Positions 1,216 to 22,241 of a stretch of 32,540 bases of DNA are shown here, piece after piece. Both the position numbers and the translations under genes were made by a program. Source of the stretch: a virus; IMG/VR virus record IMGVR_UViG_3300008108_000557, positions 1-32,540 of that record; one strand, written 5' to 3'. Position 1 is the first letter of the stretch; every line of letters starts with the position of its first letter. Below the pieces are notes generated by a model. The model was not told where the DNA came from and made no database searches. It saw only the letters and a program-made list of their open reading frames with translations.

Positions 1216-1494
1216 TCAAGACCTGTTTTCTTCAAGGGTTTCGATGTGGTGTTGGAGGTACCAGAGGGCCTTTCTGAGGTCCTCAAGTTCTTTGTCTTTT
1301 CCTTTTTTTCCTGCACGTGATATATATTTTACTGTATTTCCTAAACTAAATCCTAAATCCCAAGCATCAATAACTTTGATTGCTTCGTATGGGTTATCCT
1401 CCCCTCCGTAATGTTTTGGGTGGTTTACTTGTTCTATTTTAATTGGTGGACACTGACAAGGTCCCGTACCACCACATATACATTCTTTATCCAT
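1216..1494 (-). CDS. DUF3310 family phage protein
   Basis: The 92-residue protein carries the DUF3310 signature: NHPKHY at about 24-29, then KYISRAGKKG at about 56-65 and a C-terminal helix with LRKALWYLQHHI. In T7 the protein with this domain (gp1.7) is annotated as a nucleotide kinase acting on nucleotide pools, but most DUF3310 proteins are uncharacterised. The N-terminus has an extra cysteine cluster (CICGGTGPCQC, four Cys) that could bind a metal; this is inference. The ATG at 1494 shares its A with the stop codon of glutamine synthetase (1-base overlap), so the two are translationally coupled. Confidence 0.85.
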   Translation of the reverse strand: MDKECICGGTGPCQCPPIKIEQVNHPKHYGGEDNPYEAIKVIDAWDLGFSLGNTVKYISRAGKKGKDKELEDLRKALWYLQHHIETLEENRS

Positions 1495-2633
1495 TATTCG
1501 GCTTCTTCTTCTCTATATTCACTTAATAACTCATCGTTAGTTATAGTCCCATACTTTCCACTTAGACCTTCTATTTTCACATCTTTATTCATCATATCTC
1601 TCATTTCATATATTTGTTCGGCAGTTTTTAAAGATGTAACAATTTCTTTAATAATTTTATATGGGTCCGCATTTGATCCAGGTCTACGGTCTTCAACATA
1701 ACCTTTCCATTCTTTTGCGGTTTCTTGAGGAACCCTAATTGATGCTCCTCTGTCAGATACCCCCCAACTAAATTTATCAATAGATTGTGTTTCATACTCA
1801 CCTGTAAGTCGTAAATTGTTATTAGAACCATAAGCTTTAATATGGTCTTCATGTCTTGAACCAAAGGAGTTGAATATAGATTCAAAAAATTTGTAACCTC
1901 CTTCATTTCTCATTCTATCATCAGAAAAATTAGTATGTAATCCTGAACCATTCCATTCTCCGTGAGTCAAAGGTTTTGGGTGTATATCAATATGATATCC
2001 ATATTTTTCAGAAATTTTATATAGGAAGTACCTACTCATCCAAAGGTCATCGCCACCTTTTAATTTTCCTTTTGAAAAAACTTGGTATTCCCATTGACCT
2101 AATGCCACTTCAGCATTTGTACCAGTAATGTTAATTCCGTATTCCAAACAAATATCTAAATGTTCCTCAACAAAATCACGACCAACAACATTATGCCCAA
2201 CACCACAATAATATTCGCCCTGACCCTTTAAAATATTTCTTTTGTGTCCTAAAATAGTTCCGTTAATCTCTTCACGAATAAAATATTCTTGTTCAAACCC
2301 AAACCATAAATCTTCTTGTTCTTCATTAAGTTTGGCCCTTTTATTGGTGTCGTGAGGTGTCCCATCAGGATTTAATACCTCACATAAAACATAAACTGTA
2401 CTATTTTTTAAAGGAAAATTATATCTTGTATAAATTCTGACCGGATTTAATAATCTATCAGAATTACCGGTATCTGCTTGATTTGTAGATGACCCATCAA
2501 AATTCCAAACAGGTAATTTACCTACTTGAACCGCATCTTTAATTGATTCGTAGTCTACAATTTTAACTTTACTTCTAAGGTTTGGTTCAGGTTTGTAACC
2601 GTCTATCCAAACATATTCTAATTTAACTTTCAT
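1494..2633 (-). CDS. glnA: glutamine synthetase, type II (GSII)
   Basis: Glutamine synthetase makes glutamine from glutamate, ammonia and ATP in the cytoplasm. The 379-residue protein has type II motifs in order: an N-terminal beta-grasp segment with FDGSST (46-50), the metal-site motif WFGFEQEY (110-117), GTNAEVALGQWE (171-182), the ATP-site loop GSGLHTNFS (229-237), RLTGEYET (275-282) and SDRGASIRVP (293-302). All are close to GSII of eukaryotes and Bacteroidota rather than to the longer dodecameric GSI. Family members are usually about 340-370 residues; this one has about 45 extra, acidic residues at the C-terminus ending EYREEEAE. In RLTGxHET the usual His is Tyr here. It sits in a tight phage operon (4-base overlap with the upstream gene, 1-base with DUF3310). 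It could supply glutamine for phage nucleotide synthesis or for a glutamine-dependent DNA modification; nothing here decides between them. Confidence 0.92.
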   Translation of the reverse strand: MKVKLEYVWIDGYKPEPNLRSKVKIVDYESIKDAVQVGKLPVWNFDGSSTNQADTGNSDRLLNPVRIYTRYNFPLKNSTVYVLCEVLNPDGTPHDTNKRAKLNEEQEDLWFGFEQEYFIREEINGTILGHKRNILKGQGEYYCGVGHNVVGRDFVEEHLDICLEYGINITGTNAEVALGQWEYQVFSKGKLKGGDDLWMSRYFLYKISEKYGYHIDIHPKPLTHGEWNGSGLHTNFSDDRMRNEGGYKFFESIFNSFGSRHEDHIKAYGSNNNLRLTGEYETQSIDKFSWGVSDRGASIRVPQETAKEWKGYVEDRRPGSNADPYKIIKEIVTSLKTAEQIYEMRDMMNKDVKIEGLSGKYGTITNDELLSEYREEEAE

Positions 2634-4187: not shown

Positions 4188-4925
4188 TCATCGTATACTG
4201 ATTCTGAAATATAATCTCTTAAAAAACTCTAAGTTGTCTTCCCAAAGCCAATCACTAAATGCTTCATAACCAAGTTCATCTATTCTTGATTGTATTGCCT
4301 CACTGGCTGCATATTCTATTTTATCTTCATTATAAACAATGTATTCGGATTCGTGTTTGTCATCACCTAACCACGTAAACATTCTACCACCATAGTGATT
4401 ATATTTTTCAGGATAAATAAAATATTTGTCTTCAACTACTTCTTCTTCATTAACGCCATCATCATAGTAACTTATATCACCATTTTCGTCTAAATATTTA
4501 TAAAGAGCTTCAGTTTGATAAGATATTTCTTCCCCATTTTGAATATTCCAAGCATCTTTCTTTCTTAGTTCATCTAAATACTCAATTTTTTGTCTTAGTA
4601 TTTCTCTTTTTTTAATACGATATCTTTCACTAGCATAATCAGAAACACTACGTGCTTTATTATCGTCAAATGCATCTACACTACTATGTTGGATATTTAA
4701 ATTACCTTCGATTTTAGAAATAACGTTAAGGTTTTTTATTTCTTTATTACTAGATAAATCCAAGTTGCCTTTAATTATTATGTCTTTATTTTTATAATAT
4801 CGTTTTAATAATGCAACATCACTGTTGAAGTATACCAAATTTTCTTTGAACTCTTCTGGTGTAAGTATTACAACGTTTTCAGTCTGCTCTTTAATTACCT
4901 TTTTTATTATCTGATTTAATGACAT
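4188..4925 (-). CDS. hypothetical protein with leader-like N-terminus; likely N-terminal part of a frameshifted gene
   Basis: The 245-residue reading begins MSLNQIIKKVIKE, an amphipathic basic leader ending in IxE, similar to leaders on five other proteins here (see findings). Residues about 50-80 resemble short beta repeats (IKGNLDLSSNKEIKNLNV). Residues about 95-140 are helical and charged, and the rest is acidic and aromatic (RMFTWLGDD, FSDWLWEDNLEFFKR). The last nine residues (LYFRISIR) look like out-of-frame read-through past a T6 run at 4221-4226; the neighbouring frame continues the protein to 3743. ATATTTAT lies 5 bases before the start (4931-4938). A virion location is inferred only from the leader. 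Confidence 0.7.
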   Translation of the reverse strand: MSLNQIIKKVIKEQTENVVILTPEEFKENLVYFNSDVALLKRYYKNKDIIIKGNLDLSSNKEIKNLNVISKIEGNLNIQHSSVDAFDDNKARSVSDYASERYRIKKREILRQKIEYLDELRKKDAWNIQNGEEISYQTEALYKYLDENGDISYYDDGVNEEEVVEDKYFIYPEKYNHYGGRMFTWLGDDKHESEYIVYNEDKIEYAASEAIQSRIDELGYEAFSDWLWEDNLEFFKRLYFRISIR

Positions 4926-8958: not shown

Positions 8959-10308
8959 TTAAACAAAAAGATGTAAATCATCCATTTCCACTTTATCTTT
9001 TATACTTTGTGGTATGGAATTTTGATTACTTCCTTTCATATTAACAACAGATAATTTTGGCATTTGTGCAATACAATCAGGTAACATTTGGATGTTAGGA
9101 TTGTCAGGTAACGATAAGAACTGAAGTTTTTGTAAGTTACAAATACTTTCAGGGATAGACGCCACGCAACTAACTAAGTGAAGAGCAGTAAGTTCTTTAA
9201 AGTTGCCGATAGTTGCCGGTATGTTTAAATCTAATTTTGAACCTGATTTGGCAATAAACTCAAGTCTTTGGATATTTTCAGGTAACGTTTCAAAAAATTC
9301 ATCGAATCCGTAAAGTGCGATAAATTTAGACGATGAATCGCCAGGATAATTAACTGTCACTTTTTTACCTTCGTTAGAACTTAAACCTTTCATGAATTGT
9401 GGTTTGAAATATTCTTTCATCCCTTCTTCATTTGTATTTAAGAAGTCTACTAAATCAATTTGTCTATCCGATGGGTCCATAAACTGATTAGATGGGAAGT
9501 GGAATTGGTAACGAAGTGCCGGAAGACCAGATACATCACCAAATTCTCTATCTCCTGTGTGTTTTTGACCTTTGTTTGGTATTACCACATATAAAGGTCC
9601 GTCTTTAATGTATCTATCAAACCAAGTAAGTCCCGGTGAGGATGTACACCATCTTGTCTCACCTTTAGATGGTTCTTGGTATGAACCACCATAGAAACAA
9701 GCTGCGTCTTTACCAAGTTGACCTTTATCTTCGATTTTAGCGATAGTCCAATCAGTACCACGATAAACAATCTCAGCACCTGGATGTTGGTATGTTTTAG
9801 ATGCTTCTTTCTTCTCGTCTTTGGTTGCTTTAGTTTTTTCTAAACTGAAGTCTTTTACATTATCGTAAAGTGTTTCAGGGGTCAACTTATTAATATCACG
9901 AAGTTCTTGTGGTAATCTGTTTTTAAATCTTTCAAATTTTTGAAGGTCACCTGTAACTTTGTACAAGTCCTCCATAAATAACTCTTGGTATTGTTGATAA
10001 GCCCCTTTATATCTTGGTGAGTCAGGTTCAACGTCCAAATTTGTTGGGATTACAAAGTTTTTAAGTAACCATTGGGTGTACTTACCAATCTTAACTTTGT
10101 CCATATCCTCAGGTTTGGAATTATCAATGTCCATACCTTGTGGAAATTTAGATGTAGGGTCCGCAGCAATAATTGCAAATAAAGTCTCAAAAGGCATCAT
10201 ACCTTTTTTACCTTTTTCTTTTGGTTTTACGAATTTGTCAAATAAGACTTGAAATCTTGAACTCTCAATAATCAAATCTTTAAGGATGTTGGTAAATCTA
10301 ATAGCCAT
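8959..10308 (-). CDS. leucine-rich repeat protein with WCTS module and leader-like N-terminus
   Basis: 449 residues. It begins MAIRFTNILKDLIIE, an amphipathic leader ending in IxE like five other proteins here. A middle module around residues 185-290 has TDWTIAKI, then ETRWCTSSPG (Trp220-Cys221), DGPLYVVIPN, RYQFHFPSNQFMDPSD. Its layout (aromatic-Cys, Tyr, LYVV, YQFH) recalls the PcfJ domain of the gene two positions downstream, but that is only an eye comparison. From about 340 to the end are four to five leucine-rich repeats (LPENIQRLEF, ELTALHLVS, KLQFLSLPDNPN, LSVVNMKGS). Leucine-rich repeats bind proteins. ATATTTAT lies 18 bases upstream (10327-10334). A virion or host-interaction role is inference. 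Confidence 0.75.
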   Translation of the reverse strand: MAIRFTNILKDLIIESSRFQVLFDKFVKPKEKGKKGMMPFETLFAIIAADPTSKFPQGMDIDNSKPEDMDKVKIGKYTQWLLKNFVIPTNLDVEPDSPRYKGAYQQYQELFMEDLYKVTGDLQKFERFKNRLPQELRDINKLTPETLYDNVKDFSLEKTKATKDEKKEASKTYQHPGAEIVYRGTDWTIAKIEDKGQLGKDAACFYGGSYQEPSKGETRWCTSSPGLTWFDRYIKDGPLYVVIPNKGQKHTGDREFGDVSGLPALRYQFHFPSNQFMDPSDRQIDLVDFLNTNEEGMKEYFKPQFMKGLSSNEGKKVTVNYPGDSSSKFIALYGFDEFFETLPENIQRLEFIAKSGSKLDLNIPATIGNFKELTALHLVSCVASIPESICNLQKLQFLSLPDNPNIQMLPDCIAQMPKLSVVNMKGSNQNSIPQSIKDKVEMDDLHLFV

Positions 10309-11266: not shown

Positions 11267-11297
11267 TTTGGTAGAACCAAAAACTTTAATATCTTTG
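11267..11297 (+). promoter_or_regulatory. consensus Bacteroidota promoter driving the ncRNA
   Basis: TTTG (11267-11270), a 19-base spacer, then TATCTTTG (11290-11297) match the Bacteroidota housekeeping promoter TTTG-N19-TAnnTTTG without mismatch. Transcription would start near 11302-11305. No long ORF starts near it; the next clear gene begins at 11469 beyond a strong terminator. Confidence 0.8.
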
Positions 11298-11306
11298 TAC
11301 TGTTGA

Positions 11307-11315
11307 TGTGGATAA
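11307..11315 (-). other. DnaA-box match (TTATCCACA)
   Basis: The minus strand reads TTATCCACA, a full match to the strict bacterial DnaA box. A weaker relative, TTATCAACC, lies at 11389-11397. Both are inside the ncRNA segment and beside the AT-rich inverted repeat. One perfect nonamer in 32 kb can occur by chance, so function is unproven. Confidence 0.4.
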
Positions 11316-11429
11316 CACTACTGAAAACAAGGATGTCAGCAATCCTAACTAACAATCTGAACGCCGGGTGTCGGGTGTGTCGACACGGGTTGATAACCTC
11401 AATTGAATAAATGAAATAATCTTACTAAA

Positions 11430-11456
11430 CCCTCCTATTTTTAGGGGGGTTTTTAT
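11430..11456 (+). terminator. rho-independent terminator of the ncRNA
   Basis: CCCTCCTA (11430-11437) pairs with TAGGGGGG (11442-11449), including one G-U pair, around a TTTT loop, and is followed by TTTTTAT. AAA just upstream can extend the stem into the T-tract. It separates the ncRNA from the gene at 11469. Confidence 0.88.
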
Positions 11457-11462
11457 ATTTAT
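11455..11462 (+). promoter_or_regulatory. ATATTTAT upstream motif
   Basis: The octamer ends 6 bases before the ATG at 11469, directly after the ncRNA terminator, so it is the only visible candidate signal for separate expression of that gene. The same motif at the same distance precedes two minus-strand genes that encode similar leaders. Confidence 0.35.
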
Positions 11463-11468
11463 AATAAT

Positions 11469-11990
11469 ATGAAATTACTTAAAGTCGTAAAAAATATAAT
11501 ATTAGAAAGAAAACAACTTTTAGATAGGTACGATGTTGGGGGTATCAATGTCGATATATTTTATAATGACCATTCAAATTTAGCCATTAGCAATTCAAAA
11601 TATGGTAGACAACCTATTCAGGAAATTTTAAATTCCATGGTTGAAGTACTTGAAACTATAGTTAAAGTTTGTTTAGAAATATTATCTAAACCTAAAAAAT
11701 TTGAAGATAAAGATAGATCAATTTTAGTTATCGATAATTTAATAGGTATTGACTATCATTTTTGGGTTAATCAATCTAAATCGGGTAATTTATTTTTAAC
11801 CATAAACTCATCAATATCCCATCCAAGAAGTTTACCTAAAGCACAAAATGATAAAAAAATATTAATCACAAAAATTGGTGACACATTAATTAGTGAACAA
11901 TTTAATTTAAACAACTTTACTAAAATTGTTAATGGCGATATAATTATTTATTATGAAAAAGAAAGAAGCAACACAAGTAACAGGGTGTAA
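11469..11990 (+). CDS. hypothetical protein with leader-like N-terminus, 173 aa
   Basis: Begins MKLLKVVKNIILE, a basic amphipathic leader ending in IxE, like five other proteins in the window. The body is mixed alpha/beta (INVDIFYNDHSNLAIS; KSGNLFLTINSSISHP; GDIIIYYEKER) without recognisable catalytic residues. It follows the ncRNA terminator and overlaps the next plus-strand gene by 38 bases. The leader suggests a virion-associated protein; this is inference. Confidence 0.7.
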   Translation: MKLLKVVKNIILERKQLLDRYDVGGINVDIFYNDHSNLAISNSKYGRQPIQEILNSMVEVLETIVKVCLEILSKPKKFEDKDRSILVIDNLIGIDYHFWVNQSKSGNLFLTINSSISHPRSLPKAQNDKKILITKIGDTLISEQFNLNNFTKIVNGDIIIYYEKERSNTSNRV

Positions 11991-12114
11991 ACAATGTAAG
12001 AAAGGTTTAAGTACTACACAAAAAGGTTTGGTCATCTTATCTATGTATATTTTAGGCACTTCTATCTATGGGACCATAGAATTGATAAAAAATTTAGTAA
12101 TATTCTTTAAGTAA
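11953..12114 (+). CDS. small membrane protein, 53 aa, with CxxC
   Basis: ATG at 11953, TAA at 12112-12114. The N-terminus is basic with a CKQC pair (residues 12-15), followed by a single hydrophobic span (about 26-50, LVILSMYILGTSIYGTIELI). The CxxC before a membrane helix might bind metal. It overlaps the end of the preceding gene by 38 bases and the convergent dnaJ gene by 21 bases. It is too short for many gene finders, but coding quality is good. Confidence 0.6.
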   Translation: MKKKEATQVTGCKQCKKGLSTTQKGLVILSMYILGTSIYGTIELIKNLVIFFK

Positions 12115-13086
12115 TTCTTCTAATTTTTTTTGTACGTCTTCAGGTAACTCATAATCATTAGTGACCGCAACTTTTATATAAAAATCCCCACTACCGTCAT
12201 TACTTCTATAACCCTTTTTAAGTAATCTTAGAGGTTTTTCACTATTCATATTTTTTGGGATATTAATCATTAAATCACCATCTGGATGAGGTACCAAAAT
12301 TTGTTTTTTAGAAAGTAATTCAAGTGCATTTATTTTTTTATAAAATATGAGGTCCATACCTAATTTTTCAAAATTATCGGCTTTATTAACATCAACTTTT
12401 AAAATTAAATCTCCCCTTAATCTAACACCCGCATTATAATCACCTTTACCCGCAACTCTCATAAAATTACCGTTATCAACATTTTTAGGTATGGTTATTA
12501 CTAAGTTTTCAACATTTTTTATTCTACCGTTACCATTACAAGTAATACATGGTTTTGTAATTATAGAACCATTACCCCCACAAGTATTACACGTATTTTG
12601 AAAAACCTGTTGAAACATGCCTGTTCCCATTTTTTGAATTATAAATCCTTGTCCATTACATGTGTTACATACCGTTCTATCTCCACCAGAACTATCACAA
12701 GTAACGCAATGGTCAAAATATTCATATTTAATATCTTTTTTAACCCCTTTAAATGACTCTATAGGTGTTATTAATATGTTTAATACTTTATCAGGAGCAG
12801 TCGGTCTTTGTTGTCTTTGTCCACCCATCATTTGTTCAAAAATGGAATTGAAATCAAACCCATTGCCACCCATATTAGCAAAAGGGTTGTTTTTTCTATT
12901 ATCATAGTCCCTTCTTTTATTATCATCCCCTATATTATCGTAAGCTTCCGCAACTTCTTTAAATTTTTCTTCTCCGTTTGGGTTTACATCGGGGTGGTAT
13001 TGCTTACTTAATTGTCTATAGGCTTTCTTAATTTCGTCCTGTGTGGCGGTTTCAGATACACCCAATATATCATAATAATTTTTCAT
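12094..13086 (-). CDS. dnaJ: DnaJ-family co-chaperone
   Basis: 330 residues. The J domain (1-65) has YYDILGVSETAT and the HPD tripeptide at 31-33 that stimulates DnaK ATPase. It is followed by a G/F/N-rich linker (NPFANMGGNGFDFN). The zinc region has four CxxC units at Cys127/130, 140/143, 166/169 and 180/183, most in CxxCxGxG form; the first reads CVTCDSSG. The C-terminal substrate-binding domains end near KKLEELLKEYY. No dnaK is in the window, so it would presumably work with host DnaK, for example in replication-complex remodelling or virion protein folding. It starts head-to-head with the plus-strand gene at 13085 (2-base overlap of start codons), so the two share a divergent control region inside each other's coding DNA. 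Confidence 0.93.
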   Translation of the reverse strand: MKNYYDILGVSETATQDEIKKAYRQLSKQYHPDVNPNGEEKFKEVAEAYDNIGDDNKRRDYDNRKNNPFANMGGNGFDFNSIFEQMMGGQRQQRPTAPDKVLNILITPIESFKGVKKDIKYEYFDHCVTCDSSGGDRTVCNTCNGQGFIIQKMGTGMFQQVFQNTCNTCGGNGSIITKPCITCNGNGRIKNVENLVITIPKNVDNGNFMRVAGKGDYNAGVRLRGDLILKVDVNKADNFEKLGMDLIFYKKINALELLSKKQILVPHPDGDLMINIPKNMNSEKPLRLLKKGYRSNDGSGDFYIKVAVTNDYELPEDVQKKLEELLKEYY

Positions 13087-15456: not shown

Positions 15457-17403
15457 TTATTGCGTTTTTTGGTTATAACCAATTAAGTTTTTCATTTTTT
15501 CCATTTCTGAAATAACTTTTTTACTTTCTTTTGACTCATCAACCGCATTTAAAACACTCTGAGCAGTTTTTTTACCTTTTTTAGATTTTAAAGTACCTCC
15601 CTCAGTTTCTTCTCCTGCTTGGTCAACAGGTTGTGTTTGTCTTTTATAGGACGCCTCTTGTTGTTCTTGGCCATATAGGTTTTCCTTATAGTTTTTGAAA
15701 AATCTATCTCCAACTTCACTTGGTACTACATTACCTAAAGGTTTCCCGTCTTCATCAAAAACCGCATTTCCTGTAGTTCTATGACCTTTTATATATTTTT
15801 CAATTTTTTCATCGTTAGGTTTAATTTCATCATAAACTAAATTAGTCATACCAGGATAAGAAAAAGCATCAATATATTCATCAACAGCATCAGATGGTGT
15901 ATATTTTTTAAGTTTTTCTTTTCTATTATCTAAGTCATAATTTCCTTCTGGAAAATTTGTTGGGTTTTCTTCATATTCTCCCTTACTCATATCTTTTAGA
16001 TAATCTTTCATTTTTTTTGTGACACTTTTAATATAGTTGTCATTTTCTTTTTTTGACCTACCTAAAGAAGATTTAAGTACGTTTTGTGCACTTGGGGATT
16101 TTGATTTTTTCTTTTCTTCTTTCACAATGTTTTCAATTATATCAACCATTTCTGATTCTGTAAAATAAAATTTAGATTCTTTTCTTAAAATTTTAAAATC
16201 TTCACCATCAATTTTATTGTTATTATTTTTATCAATTAATTTTTGTCTTCCGTATAGTTTTTCTTTTACTTCTTTCTTATTTGACCTTAATTTTTTGAAA
16301 TCCTTTCCGTCTATCTCGTCATAAGGTTTTGCTTGTTTTGCTATATATTTTTGACCTTTTGATAATTTTTTTGCCTCATACATATCACTTTTAGGTCCAC
16401 ATTCATTACACTCCTCTTCTTCAAGTTCCTCATCTTTAACTCTTTCTCTACCAACATTTCCTGAAAGTTCGGCACCTACAGTACCACCCAAACCAGCCAT
16501 GATAAGTGCGGCTTGTAATACGTCATCACCTGCCATTGTTCCCATAAAATAACCAACAACCGCAGCCAAAGTTCCAAAAACACCATAACTAATTAATTTT
16601 CCTTTTAAGTACTCATTTCTTGTAATTTCTTTTTTTCCTCGACTATCGCTATAGTCATAATATTTATAATCTTCACTAATATCAGATGACATTGTCATTG
16701 CATTCTTAATATCTTTAGCCGCTTTAGGGTTTTCTTTAAAGAAATCTACTAATTCTTGGAACTCATCAATTTTATTTAGTTTTTTAAGTTTAACCATAGA
16801 AAAGTCACTTTCTCTTTCAATATCTTCAGATTGGTTTATCCACTCTTCTTCATCGTATTCTTCATATAAATTGATATCGTCCATTTCTTCAAAATCATCA
16901 TCATCACTATAATTAGAAATTTGAAAATCGGACACTATGTTATCAATATAATCCTCAAGTTTTCTAAAATCACTATCAGATAAATTGTCAATCTCTTCTT
17001 TGTTGTCTTTAAAAAAATCTTCGATCATTTCTTCAAATTCTTCAACGTCTTCGGCGTAATCTGAAATTTCATCGATTTCATCTTGAATAAATTTAAGATT
17101 ATTTTTTACATCACTATCTTCGTCATCACCCCTAAGCAAATTTTCAATATCTTCTATAGACATCGGGCTTTTAAATTTCATTTTACCAAATCTAGGGTGT
17201 CCGTCATCCATACCACCTAGTTCATGTATATTACCTTCATACATACCACTACATTCAGAACAAACCCCTTCATACATGTTAGAACCACACTCATTACAGA
17301 TTTCTTGTTTTTCCTCAAATATTCTGCGTTTAACGTTAGAAATTTTATCTGAAATCTCTTCAGACACTACTCTATTGACAATTTTTATAATTTCTCTATT
17401 CAT
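15457..17403 (-). CDS. large multi-domain protein with zinc ribbon, two membrane spans and EF-hand; candidate virion protein
   Basis: 648 residues. It begins MNREIIKIVNRVVSEE, a leader of the kind shared by six proteins here (VxE). Cys36/39 and Cys48/51 form a four-cysteine zinc ribbon, followed by a very acidic region (about 85-200). Two hydrophobic segments lie at about 271-290 and 295-313 (TLAAVVGYFMGTMAG, ALIMAGLGGTVG). CNEC occurs at 332-335. Residues 391-402 (DKNNNNKIDGED) fit a calcium-binding EF-hand loop with acids or Asn at positions 1, 3, 5, 9 and 12. A second leader-like helix ESEMVDIIENIVKEE lies at about 416-430. The end reads MKNLIGYNQKTQ. ATATTTAT lies 5 bases before the start. 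The mixture suggests a head-internal or injected protein, but this is inference. Confidence 0.7.
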   Translation of the reverse strand: MNREIIKIVNRVVSEEISDKISNVKRRIFEEKQEICNECGSNMYEGVCSECSGMYEGNIHELGGMDDGHPRFGKMKFKSPMSIEDIENLLRGDDEDSDVKNNLKFIQDEIDEISDYAEDVEEFEEMIEDFFKDNKEEIDNLSDSDFRKLEDYIDNIVSDFQISNYSDDDDFEEMDDINLYEEYDEEEWINQSEDIERESDFSMVKLKKLNKIDEFQELVDFFKENPKAAKDIKNAMTMSSDISEDYKYYDYSDSRGKKEITRNEYLKGKLISYGVFGTLAAVVGYFMGTMAGDDVLQAALIMAGLGGTVGAELSGNVGRERVKDEELEEEECNECGPKSDMYEAKKLSKGQKYIAKQAKPYDEIDGKDFKKLRSNKKEVKEKLYGRQKLIDKNNNNKIDGEDFKILRKESKFYFTESEMVDIIENIVKEEKKKSKSPSAQNVLKSSLGRSKKENDNYIKSVTKKMKDYLKDMSKGEYEENPTNFPEGNYDLDNRKEKLKKYTPSDAVDEYIDAFSYPGMTNLVYDEIKPNDEKIEKYIKGHRTTGNAVFDEDGKPLGNVVPSEVGDRFFKNYKENLYGQEQQEASYKRQTQPVDQAGEETEGGTLKSKKGKKTAQSVLNAVDESKESKKVISEMEKMKNLIGYNQKTQ

Positions 17404-21281: not shown

Positions 21282-21317
21282 AATAAAAAATAAAACCCCC
21301 ACTGGCGCCAATGGGGG
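21282..21317 (-). terminator. rho-independent terminator
   Basis: Minus-strand RNA pairs CCCCCATTG with the complementary CAGTGGGGG arm (21296-21317), including one G-U pair that would be a C-A mismatch on the plus strand, so the hairpin belongs to minus-strand transcripts. It is followed by TTTTATTTTTTATTT. It closes the sigma-factor transcript and separates it from the gene at 21247. Confidence 0.85.
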
Positions 21318-21425
21318 AGTGTAGTTTCATCTTAGTCATATGGACAAGATTGAGGATTTTCACCTTGGTGTCTTCAGGCACCTTCTGCCGAGTTATAAGG
21401 GTAATCTCGGTTCAACCCTTTTTTA
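21318..21425 (-). other. structured non-coding segment between sigma factor and terminator
   Basis: On the minus strand this 108-base stretch can form CCGAG (21407-21411) with CTCGG (21389-21393), GGTG with CACC around 21366-21384, ATCTT with AAGAT near 21328-21350, and then the strong terminator. GGGT and ACCC near the sigma stop offer an alternative pairing. The layout, several hairpins then a terminator then a gene, resembles a leader or attenuator of the gene at 21247, or a stabilised 3' end of the sigma mRNA. No known riboswitch class or tRNA is recognised. Confidence 0.45.
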
Positions 21426-22241
21426 TTACATATATTCAAATAAATCAGAACATTCGTTTCTTAATTTACGAAGTGCCTTTTCTTTAATTTGACGAACACG
21501 TTCTTTTGTCAAAGAAAAGTCAGACCCAATATCTTCTAATGTTCGTGGTGTTCCTGTAATACCATAATAGTCTTCAACAATTGTTCGTTCTCTTTGGTCC
21601 AAAACAGACATAATATTTATCATCTTTTCTTTTAAAATGTCTTGGGTTGAGAATATTTCATCGGGAGCATCCACATTTTCGTTTTTAATAATATCAATCA
21701 ATGTGTCTCCGTCCTCATTAATGTGCATATCCAAGTCAATCATTCTTGGTAAGTTTGCAAATTTGTCTGACAAATCTTTATTTGTTTTTTCATTTTCACG
21801 TTTTTCTTTTTGCATGTCTTGAACAACATTGACAGGGAGACGGATTGTGCGTGAATTGTCGTTTAGTGATTGTAGAATAGATTGTTTAATCCACCATACG
21901 GCATATGAAATAAATCTGTTTTTTTTAGTCCAATCAAAGTTTTTAATGGCTTTCATTAATCCAAAATTACCTTCGGCAATTAAATCAGATAAATCAACAC
22001 CTTGATTTTGATATTGTTTTGCTACCGTAATAACAAAACGTAAGTTACCCTCAAGCATTTCTTTTTGAATGTCATCTTTTTCACGTTGTGAGCAATTTTC
22101 AGATGCTATTCGTTCAGCCAAAACACGCTCTCTTTCAGGTGTCATAACTTTTAATTTTCTAATGTCCTTTAAATAAATTTGAATTTCATCCTGATTTAAA
22201 GGGTTAGTTGATTTGGTTTCCTCCATTTTCTCTCTTTCCAT
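21426..22241 (-). CDS. RNA polymerase sigma factor, sigma-70 family, RpoD-like
   Basis: 271 residues from ATG 22241; ATG 22226 is possible. Region 1.2 (NQDEIQIYLKDIRKLKVMTP), region 2 with GNLRFVITVAKQYQNQGVDL, DLIAEGNFGLMKAIKNFD and RFISYAVWWIKQSILQSL (about 65-130, covering -10 recognition), region 3 start TIRLPVNVV, and region 4 RERTIVEDYYGITG to LTKERVRQIKEKALRKLR (helix-turn-helix, about 215-262). It resembles the short primary sigma factors of Bacteroidota far more than T4 gp55. It would replace host sigma on RNA polymerase to read phage promoters, possibly those of the ATATTTAT genes. It overlaps the upstream gene by 38 bases and both are served by a host-type promoter at 22824-22853. 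Confidence 0.93.
   Translation of the reverse strand: MEREKMEETKSTNPLNQDEIQIYLKDIRKLKVMTPERERVLAERIASENCSQREKDDIQKEMLEGNLRFVITVAKQYQNQGVDLSDLIAEGNFGLMKAIKNFDWTKKNRFISYAVWWIKQSILQSLNDNSRTIRLPVNVVQDMQKEKRENEKTNKDLSDKFANLPRMIDLDMHINEDGDTLIDIIKNENVDAPDEIFSTQDILKEKMINIMSVLDQRERTIVEDYYGITGTPRTLEDIGSDFSLTKERVRQIKEKALRKLRNECSDLFEYM

Follow-up and report, generated by a model that had tools for sequence, protein, structure and literature searches.

The stretch analysed is a virus record of 32.5 kb from IMG/VR, referred to here as the window. Its plus strand carries a well-supported predicted RNA of about 150 nt (11302–11456) that has a host-type promoter of its own and ends in an intrinsic terminator, and an ORF of 173 residues, the family A ORF, follows at 11469–11990. 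A glutamine synthetase-like gene (1494–2633, minus strand; Gln-synt_C 2.9e-17, Gln-synt_N) and a phage DnaJ homologue with J, zinc and C-terminal domains (12094–13086, minus strand) are also found in the window.

The promoter is of the Bacteroidota primary-sigma type (-33/-7). It matches TTTG-N19-TATCTTTG exactly at 11267–11297 on the plus strand, as the initial annotation had read it, and TATCTTTG agrees with the experimental -7 consensus TAHHTTTG of Flavobacterium (F. johnsoniae), in which transcription starts 4–5 nt downstream of the -7 box (PMC6847099). This spacing places the predicted 5' end of the RNA at 11302–11303. The pattern occurs at five sites in the window versus 2.55 in shuffles, which taken alone is weak evidence; the promoter is significant because it is conserved across stand-alone loci. 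Among the 22 such loci of RNA types A and B (the window and its relatives), 18 keep the full promoter and the other four the -7 box alone, and the distances from promoter to RNA are fixed. As a control, the pattern is present in 66 of 6600 random 110-nt stretches.

The predicted 5' end opens a leader hairpin, P1 (11302–11328, plus strand), with GUGG paired to CUAC in the window. In relatives P1 has another sequence and is still a hairpin (for example GUGGUUAACCAC / GUAGUUAACUAC). The GC content of the RNA body is 43–47% versus 19–30% in the surroundings, and the RNA folds somewhat better than shuffled sequence (MFE z = -2.27; 5 of 200 shuffles are equally good). At the 3' end lies an intrinsic terminator (11427–11457, plus strand) with an 11-bp stem at 11427–11452 followed by a T run. 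Only 0.1 such terminators are expected in shuffles, and the terminator is real. Both the GC-rich body and the rho-independent terminator had been noted in the initial annotation. In Rfam 15 the window has no match at any family's gathering threshold, and E-value mode gives only sub-threshold matches for the window stretch and 18 relatives, many of them carried by the terminator. 6S RNA has no match in the Rfam scan, and its long hairpin with a central bubble does not fit the architecture here, a pseudoknot with short hairpins.

A conserved pseudoknotted RNA family with tandem modules

The core module (11329–11421, plus strand) scores 101.6 bits with the covariance model R1, of which the window core is a seed sequence and therefore matches by construction. 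Stem S1 pairs AGGAU (11330–11334) with AUCCU (11342–11346), and stem S2 pairs UCAG (11336–11339) with CUGA (11357–11360), so that S2 in the window has four pairs with G.A at the fifth position; most relatives have five or six. Hairpin P4 pairs GUGUCG (11368–11373) with CGACAC (11381–11386) around the loop GGUGUGU. P5 pairs 11387–11390 with 11396–11399, and P6, with a bulged A, occupies 11400–11413. An H-type pseudoknot (S1/S2) followed by P4, P5 and P6 is well supported by the comparison of relatives. In alignment A3 of 19 modules, 93.9% of the pairs are standard versus 26–45% with slid partners, and for S1 the value is 94.7%. Ten pairs are changed on both sides, with 41 double-change cells versus 14.4 in shuffled alignments. 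Compensatory changes occur at six of six P4 pairs, while in P6 the CA/UG pairs are almost invariant and covariation is in the upper pairs.

Within type A, S2 hardly varies, and it is the comparison between types that supports it. The type A pseudoknot has S1 AGGA/UCCU and S2 GUCAG/CUGAC, type B has S1 AAAUGG/CCAUUU and S2 GAYUUG/CAAGUC (GAUUUG or GACUUG), and type S has S1 GGGU/ACCC and S2 CCGAG/CUCGG; both stems change in step between the types. The compensatory changes, together with the Rfam result, uphold the initial annotation of an undescribed structured phage RNA of about 150 nt at the level of sequence. The description there of three short hairpins is incomplete: comparison gives P1, the pseudoknot, P4, P5, P6 and the terminator.

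Could the locus instead encode a small peptide that is secreted or toxic? In the window copy a frame of 25 codons starts with ATG. This frame shrinks to 6–8 codons in L034, L036 and L210 and to 16 codons in L174, in L184 and in the first module of both L180 and L191; L152, L156 and L164 lack the ATG. The helices covary instead, and the relatives, which the initial annotation had proposed to inspect for protein-type substitutions, keep no reading frame. The statement that no long ORF lies within the RNA thus holds, and a peptide, contradicted by the loss of frame, is very improbable.

The relatives are metagenomic IMG/VR contigs, many of them partial, collected with the dam gene, the leader, the ORF and the module as queries. 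The carriers of the family are a group of large viruses whose hosts are Bacteroidota-type bacteria. RNA cores are 73–99% identical to the window; third codon positions of the adjacent dam genes are 56–62% identical. Alternative RNA alleles sit between dam and the next gene, and other RNA loci lie away from dam (L115/L148, L164, L174, L180, L184, L191, L210). Most phage records have one type A locus. The window has one module, and seven loci have two in tandem (L073, L102, L111, L115/L148, L132, L180, L191), the duplicated unit being either the pseudoknot with P4 (~57 nt) or the entire body (~92 nt). Among annotated phages the RNA has no DNA match; only the dam gene is matched, in two uncultured phage records of ~640 kb, and R1 finds no match in these two records. 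R1 and the type S pattern find nothing in 395 Bacteroidota genomes, a scan that weak matches can escape. Leader-pattern matches in genome contigs (L133–L140) and pattern matches in L165, L169, L175–L178, L182, L185, L188, L189 and L192 were judged to be chance.

The window holds a second RNA of the same architecture, of type S, at 21292–21420 on the minus strand, with S1 AAGGGU/ACCCUU, S2 CCGAG/CUCGG, P4–P6 and a terminator. It lies in the 3'UTR of a phage sigma-70-like factor gene (21426–22241, minus strand; Sigma70_r2 4.2e-17, Sigma70_r4 9.6e-16), starting just past the stop codon. Type S was discovered through weak R1 matches. The bridging type S sequences L249, L257 and L264 match R1 at E 4e-4 to 3e-3, and a subset of type A loci is matched by R2 (E about 2e-5 to 2e-4), partly with the 3' half and terminator only; these E-values are rough. 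Weak R2 matches inside window genes were judged to be chance. In alignment A5, the covariation set for type S, eight pairs covary with 41 double-change cells versus 14.6 in shuffles. The type S scan yields 91 stretches which, with previously known loci, represent 62 distinct cores; 27 of these are in sigma-factor 3'UTRs, 10 stand alone with a host-type promoter, and the rest are in other or unresolved contexts.

These positions raise the question of a cis-acting 3'-end element: the folded body and terminator would shield the upstream mRNA or control it, or would attenuate the gene that follows. Many copies start 2–5 nt past a stop codon (2–3 nt in L167, L171 and L179), and type A copies are followed by an ORF beyond the terminator. 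However, the stand-alone copies, which carry a promoter themselves, have no upstream mRNA that they could protect, the ORF downstream has its own TATTTAT motif (see below), and among 49 type S copies 23 face a convergent next gene and so cannot be leaders. Taken together, a cis element is improbable.

The downstream ORF and its coupling to the RNA

The family A ORF begins with MKLLKVVKNIILE, an N-terminus that resembles the T4 capsid-targeting propeptide (PMC9026906). Judged by sequence, it is a hydrophobic propeptide ending in an (L/I)xE-type cleavage site, and E13 is invariant in alignment A4. Capsid-targeting-like motifs are found in 193 of 1722 genes of related loci. In the window four ORFs share the T4-like N-terminus (4188–4925, 8959–10308, 11469–11990 and 15457–17403), and their products may belong to one set of injected head proteins. 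The motif TATTTAT (11456–11462, plus strand) precedes the ATG start codon of the family A ORF by 13 nt. At -12/-13 it occurs in the window only before ORFs with a capsid-targeting-like N-terminus; its starts are 4937 (minus), 11456 (plus) and 17415 (minus). It resembles a late promoter that would leave the mRNA with a very short leader, and its position suggests late expression of the family A ORF from a separate promoter.

The AlphaFold2 model of family A has a moderate pLDDT of 73.5, and its second-look fold list is headed by the unrelated MAJIN (Z 5.2), followed by RelE (4.1) and CdiA (3.5), so that the product appears weakly RelE/BECR-like. No ToxN-like match is among the family A fold results; the fold may nevertheless be that of ToxN. 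The family B model is better (pLDDT 79.2), and its second-look list consists mostly of RelE, HigB, YoeB, ParE and CdiA toxins with a middling best Z of 5.4. Foldseek gives no match at E ≤ 0.001 for either model. Family B has the invariant residues H35, R40, R66, S133 and S136 and a Pfam MuF_C match at E = 0.02, below the cut-off. A His plus Ser/Thr layout is that of phage BECR RNases packed in virions (PMC5512222), and H35, S133/S136 and the MuF_C match would fit family B to this group. His35 is only partly kept in family A. Profiles of the two families align with a probability of 85% (E 6e-6), partly via the shared N-terminus. The window ORF has no Pfam family at E ≤ 1 and no PADLOC match at E ≤ 10, and its relatives have no type III toxin family at E ≤ 5.

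The coupling of ORF and RNA is quite strict. A protein search for the family A ORF, made blind to the RNA, found 24 loci, and all 19 intact ORFs have a module 133–145 nt upstream. Of the five loci with fragments only, L164 keeps the RNA and four lack it; in three of these four an RNA lies elsewhere in the same record, and in one of them (L210) it precedes an intact family A ORF. Distances between last modules correlate with ORF distances (Mantel r = 0.78, p = 0.0004); last modules and dam show no correlation (r = 0.05). Two arrays, L111 and L132, are chimeric: the nearest relative of the last module is also that of the ORF, whereas the first module goes with the window group. Module and ORF co-segregate, and physical linkage could cause part of this. 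Type B RNA is found upstream of ORFs of family B, and at seven loci type S RNA comes after the stop codon of a family B gene. Families A, B and C make up 25 of 133 RNA-adjacent genes versus 15 of 1725 other genes, counts from phylogenetically related loci that are not independent, so that any P value calls for caution. Two family B genes (L064, L092) have no RNA of types A, B or S on their contig.

Three further loci or groups were observed. In L072 (5126–5400, minus strand) a type A-like promoter stands before an RNA body of type B and an ORF of family B, and body and ORF look as if exchanged together. In L164 (2861–3001) the RNA locus is intact and a degraded family A ORF follows; this would be an orphan RNA. 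A third family of capsid-targeted type (GGY..F.KL.PDYF) adjoins the RNA, upstream in L167 and L171 and downstream in L172, L180 and L191; its L167 member has no Pfam match.

The same coupling bears on two other explanations. In one, the RNA acts in trans on a target unrelated to the ORF, as a decoy that titrates a protein that binds RNA or a nuclease (a host defence toxin, perhaps) or as a base-pairing sRNA, and the linkage would reflect a shared accessory cassette. RNAs with no adjacent nuclease gene, in 27 distinct sigma-factor 3'UTRs and 10 stand-alone loci with a promoter, point this way. Tandem duplication of modules suits titration, and a phage that imitates a host RNA antitoxin has been described (PhiTE, PMC5449768). 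Against it stand the presence of the RNA at all 19 intact family A loci and the co-segregation of module and ORF; the 395 Bacteroidota genomes yield no related RNA, and thus no host original is known. An unrelated target is possible, and we consider it rather doubtful. In the other, the RNA is packaged and injected together with the head protein as guide, scaffold or cargo and not as an inhibitor. The coupling and the capsid-targeting N-termini would be expected here too, but the host-type promoter suggests that the RNA is probably early, while the protein gene has a late-promoter-like motif. We know of no precedent for an RNA packaged as partner of an injected head protein, and this explanation is quite unlikely.

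Possible function and relation to known systems

We tentatively propose, at a little short of even confidence, that the RNA is a type III-style antitoxin for a predicted head-packaged nuclease. The proposal is made because the gene order, pseudoknot, duplicated modules, terminator and co-segregating small protein match the plan of type III toxin-antitoxin systems. In this mechanism host RNA polymerase would transcribe the trans-acting RNA of about 150 nt from the Bacteroidota promoter, and the intrinsic terminator would set its 3' end. The pseudoknot module would bind the product of the downstream ORF, a predicted RelE/BECR-like endoribonuclease with a capsid-targeting N-terminus, and hold it inactive. 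The nuclease would be made late, packed into the head and injected, and the RNA could act as antitoxin during late expression or against incoming particles. Extra non-cognate modules in tandem arrays may be retained antidotes to other variants. We infer expression of the RNA, packaging in the head, nuclease activity, RNA–protein binding and neutralization from these comparisons. Several findings argue against an antitoxin: the similarity of the models to known structures is weak (Z at best 5.4 in family B, and 5.2 to a non-nuclease in family A), family A retains His35 only in part, type S is usually in a sigma-factor 3'UTR (27 of 62 distinct cores) and not near a nuclease gene, and L064 and L092 have family B genes with no such RNA on the contig. 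A more specific version, in which each antidote RNA is specific for one injected BECR nuclease and the array is an immunity locus against co-infecting phages, is conceivable but rather unlikely. The roles suggested in the initial annotation (regulation of mRNAs, binding of RNA polymerase, priming of replication) found no specific support, and the association with the ORF favours an antitoxin-like role over them.

With strong comparative support, a structured RNA family absent from Rfam is added to poorly known, very large phages, and it is tied to predicted injected virion proteins. If the antitoxin proposal is true, RNA-antitoxin systems would reach another nuclease fold and proteins that the phage head delivers, and it would become possible to test directly how a phage withstands the effectors that it packages.

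GOLLD and ROOL are likewise phage-borne noncoding structured RNAs of unknown function. They are several times longer and have another architecture; the RNA here is shorter and has no Rfam match. The phage BECR virion RNases (PBECR, MuF-C) share with the present proteins the modelled family B fold, the His plus Ser pattern and a putative packaging signal. To our knowledge, RNA partners are not known for the PBECR families. The pseudo-ToxI of phage PhiTE, a phage RNA mimic of ToxI (PMC5449768), also has phage-encoded pseudoknot modules whose number can expand. It mimics a host antitoxin, whereas the present RNA has no host original among the genomes scanned and its protein partner is encoded by the phage.

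The closest plan is that of type III toxin-antitoxin systems, with a promoter, RNA, terminator and toxin gene as in ToxIN (PMC8860590). ToxIN, CptIN and TenpIN share with the present loci a promoter, one or more H-type pseudoknot modules, an intrinsic terminator and a gene for a small protein. Modules may be repeated, although here the window has a single one and related loci have two, and RNA and protein types co-segregate. Here the H-type pseudoknot is supported by comparative pairing in three pairing versions, and the promoter precedes the RNA and the terminator precedes the protein gene. Pfam and PADLOC give no recognizable sequence relative of ToxN, CptN or TenpN, and because no recognizable ToxN relative was found the locus is not classed as type III. 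The proteins are instead RelE/BECR-like by prediction, with a capsid-targeting N-terminus. In place of arrays of short repeats there are one or two modules of 57–92 nt with hairpins, and the RNA here occurs also in the 3'UTRs of unrelated genes.
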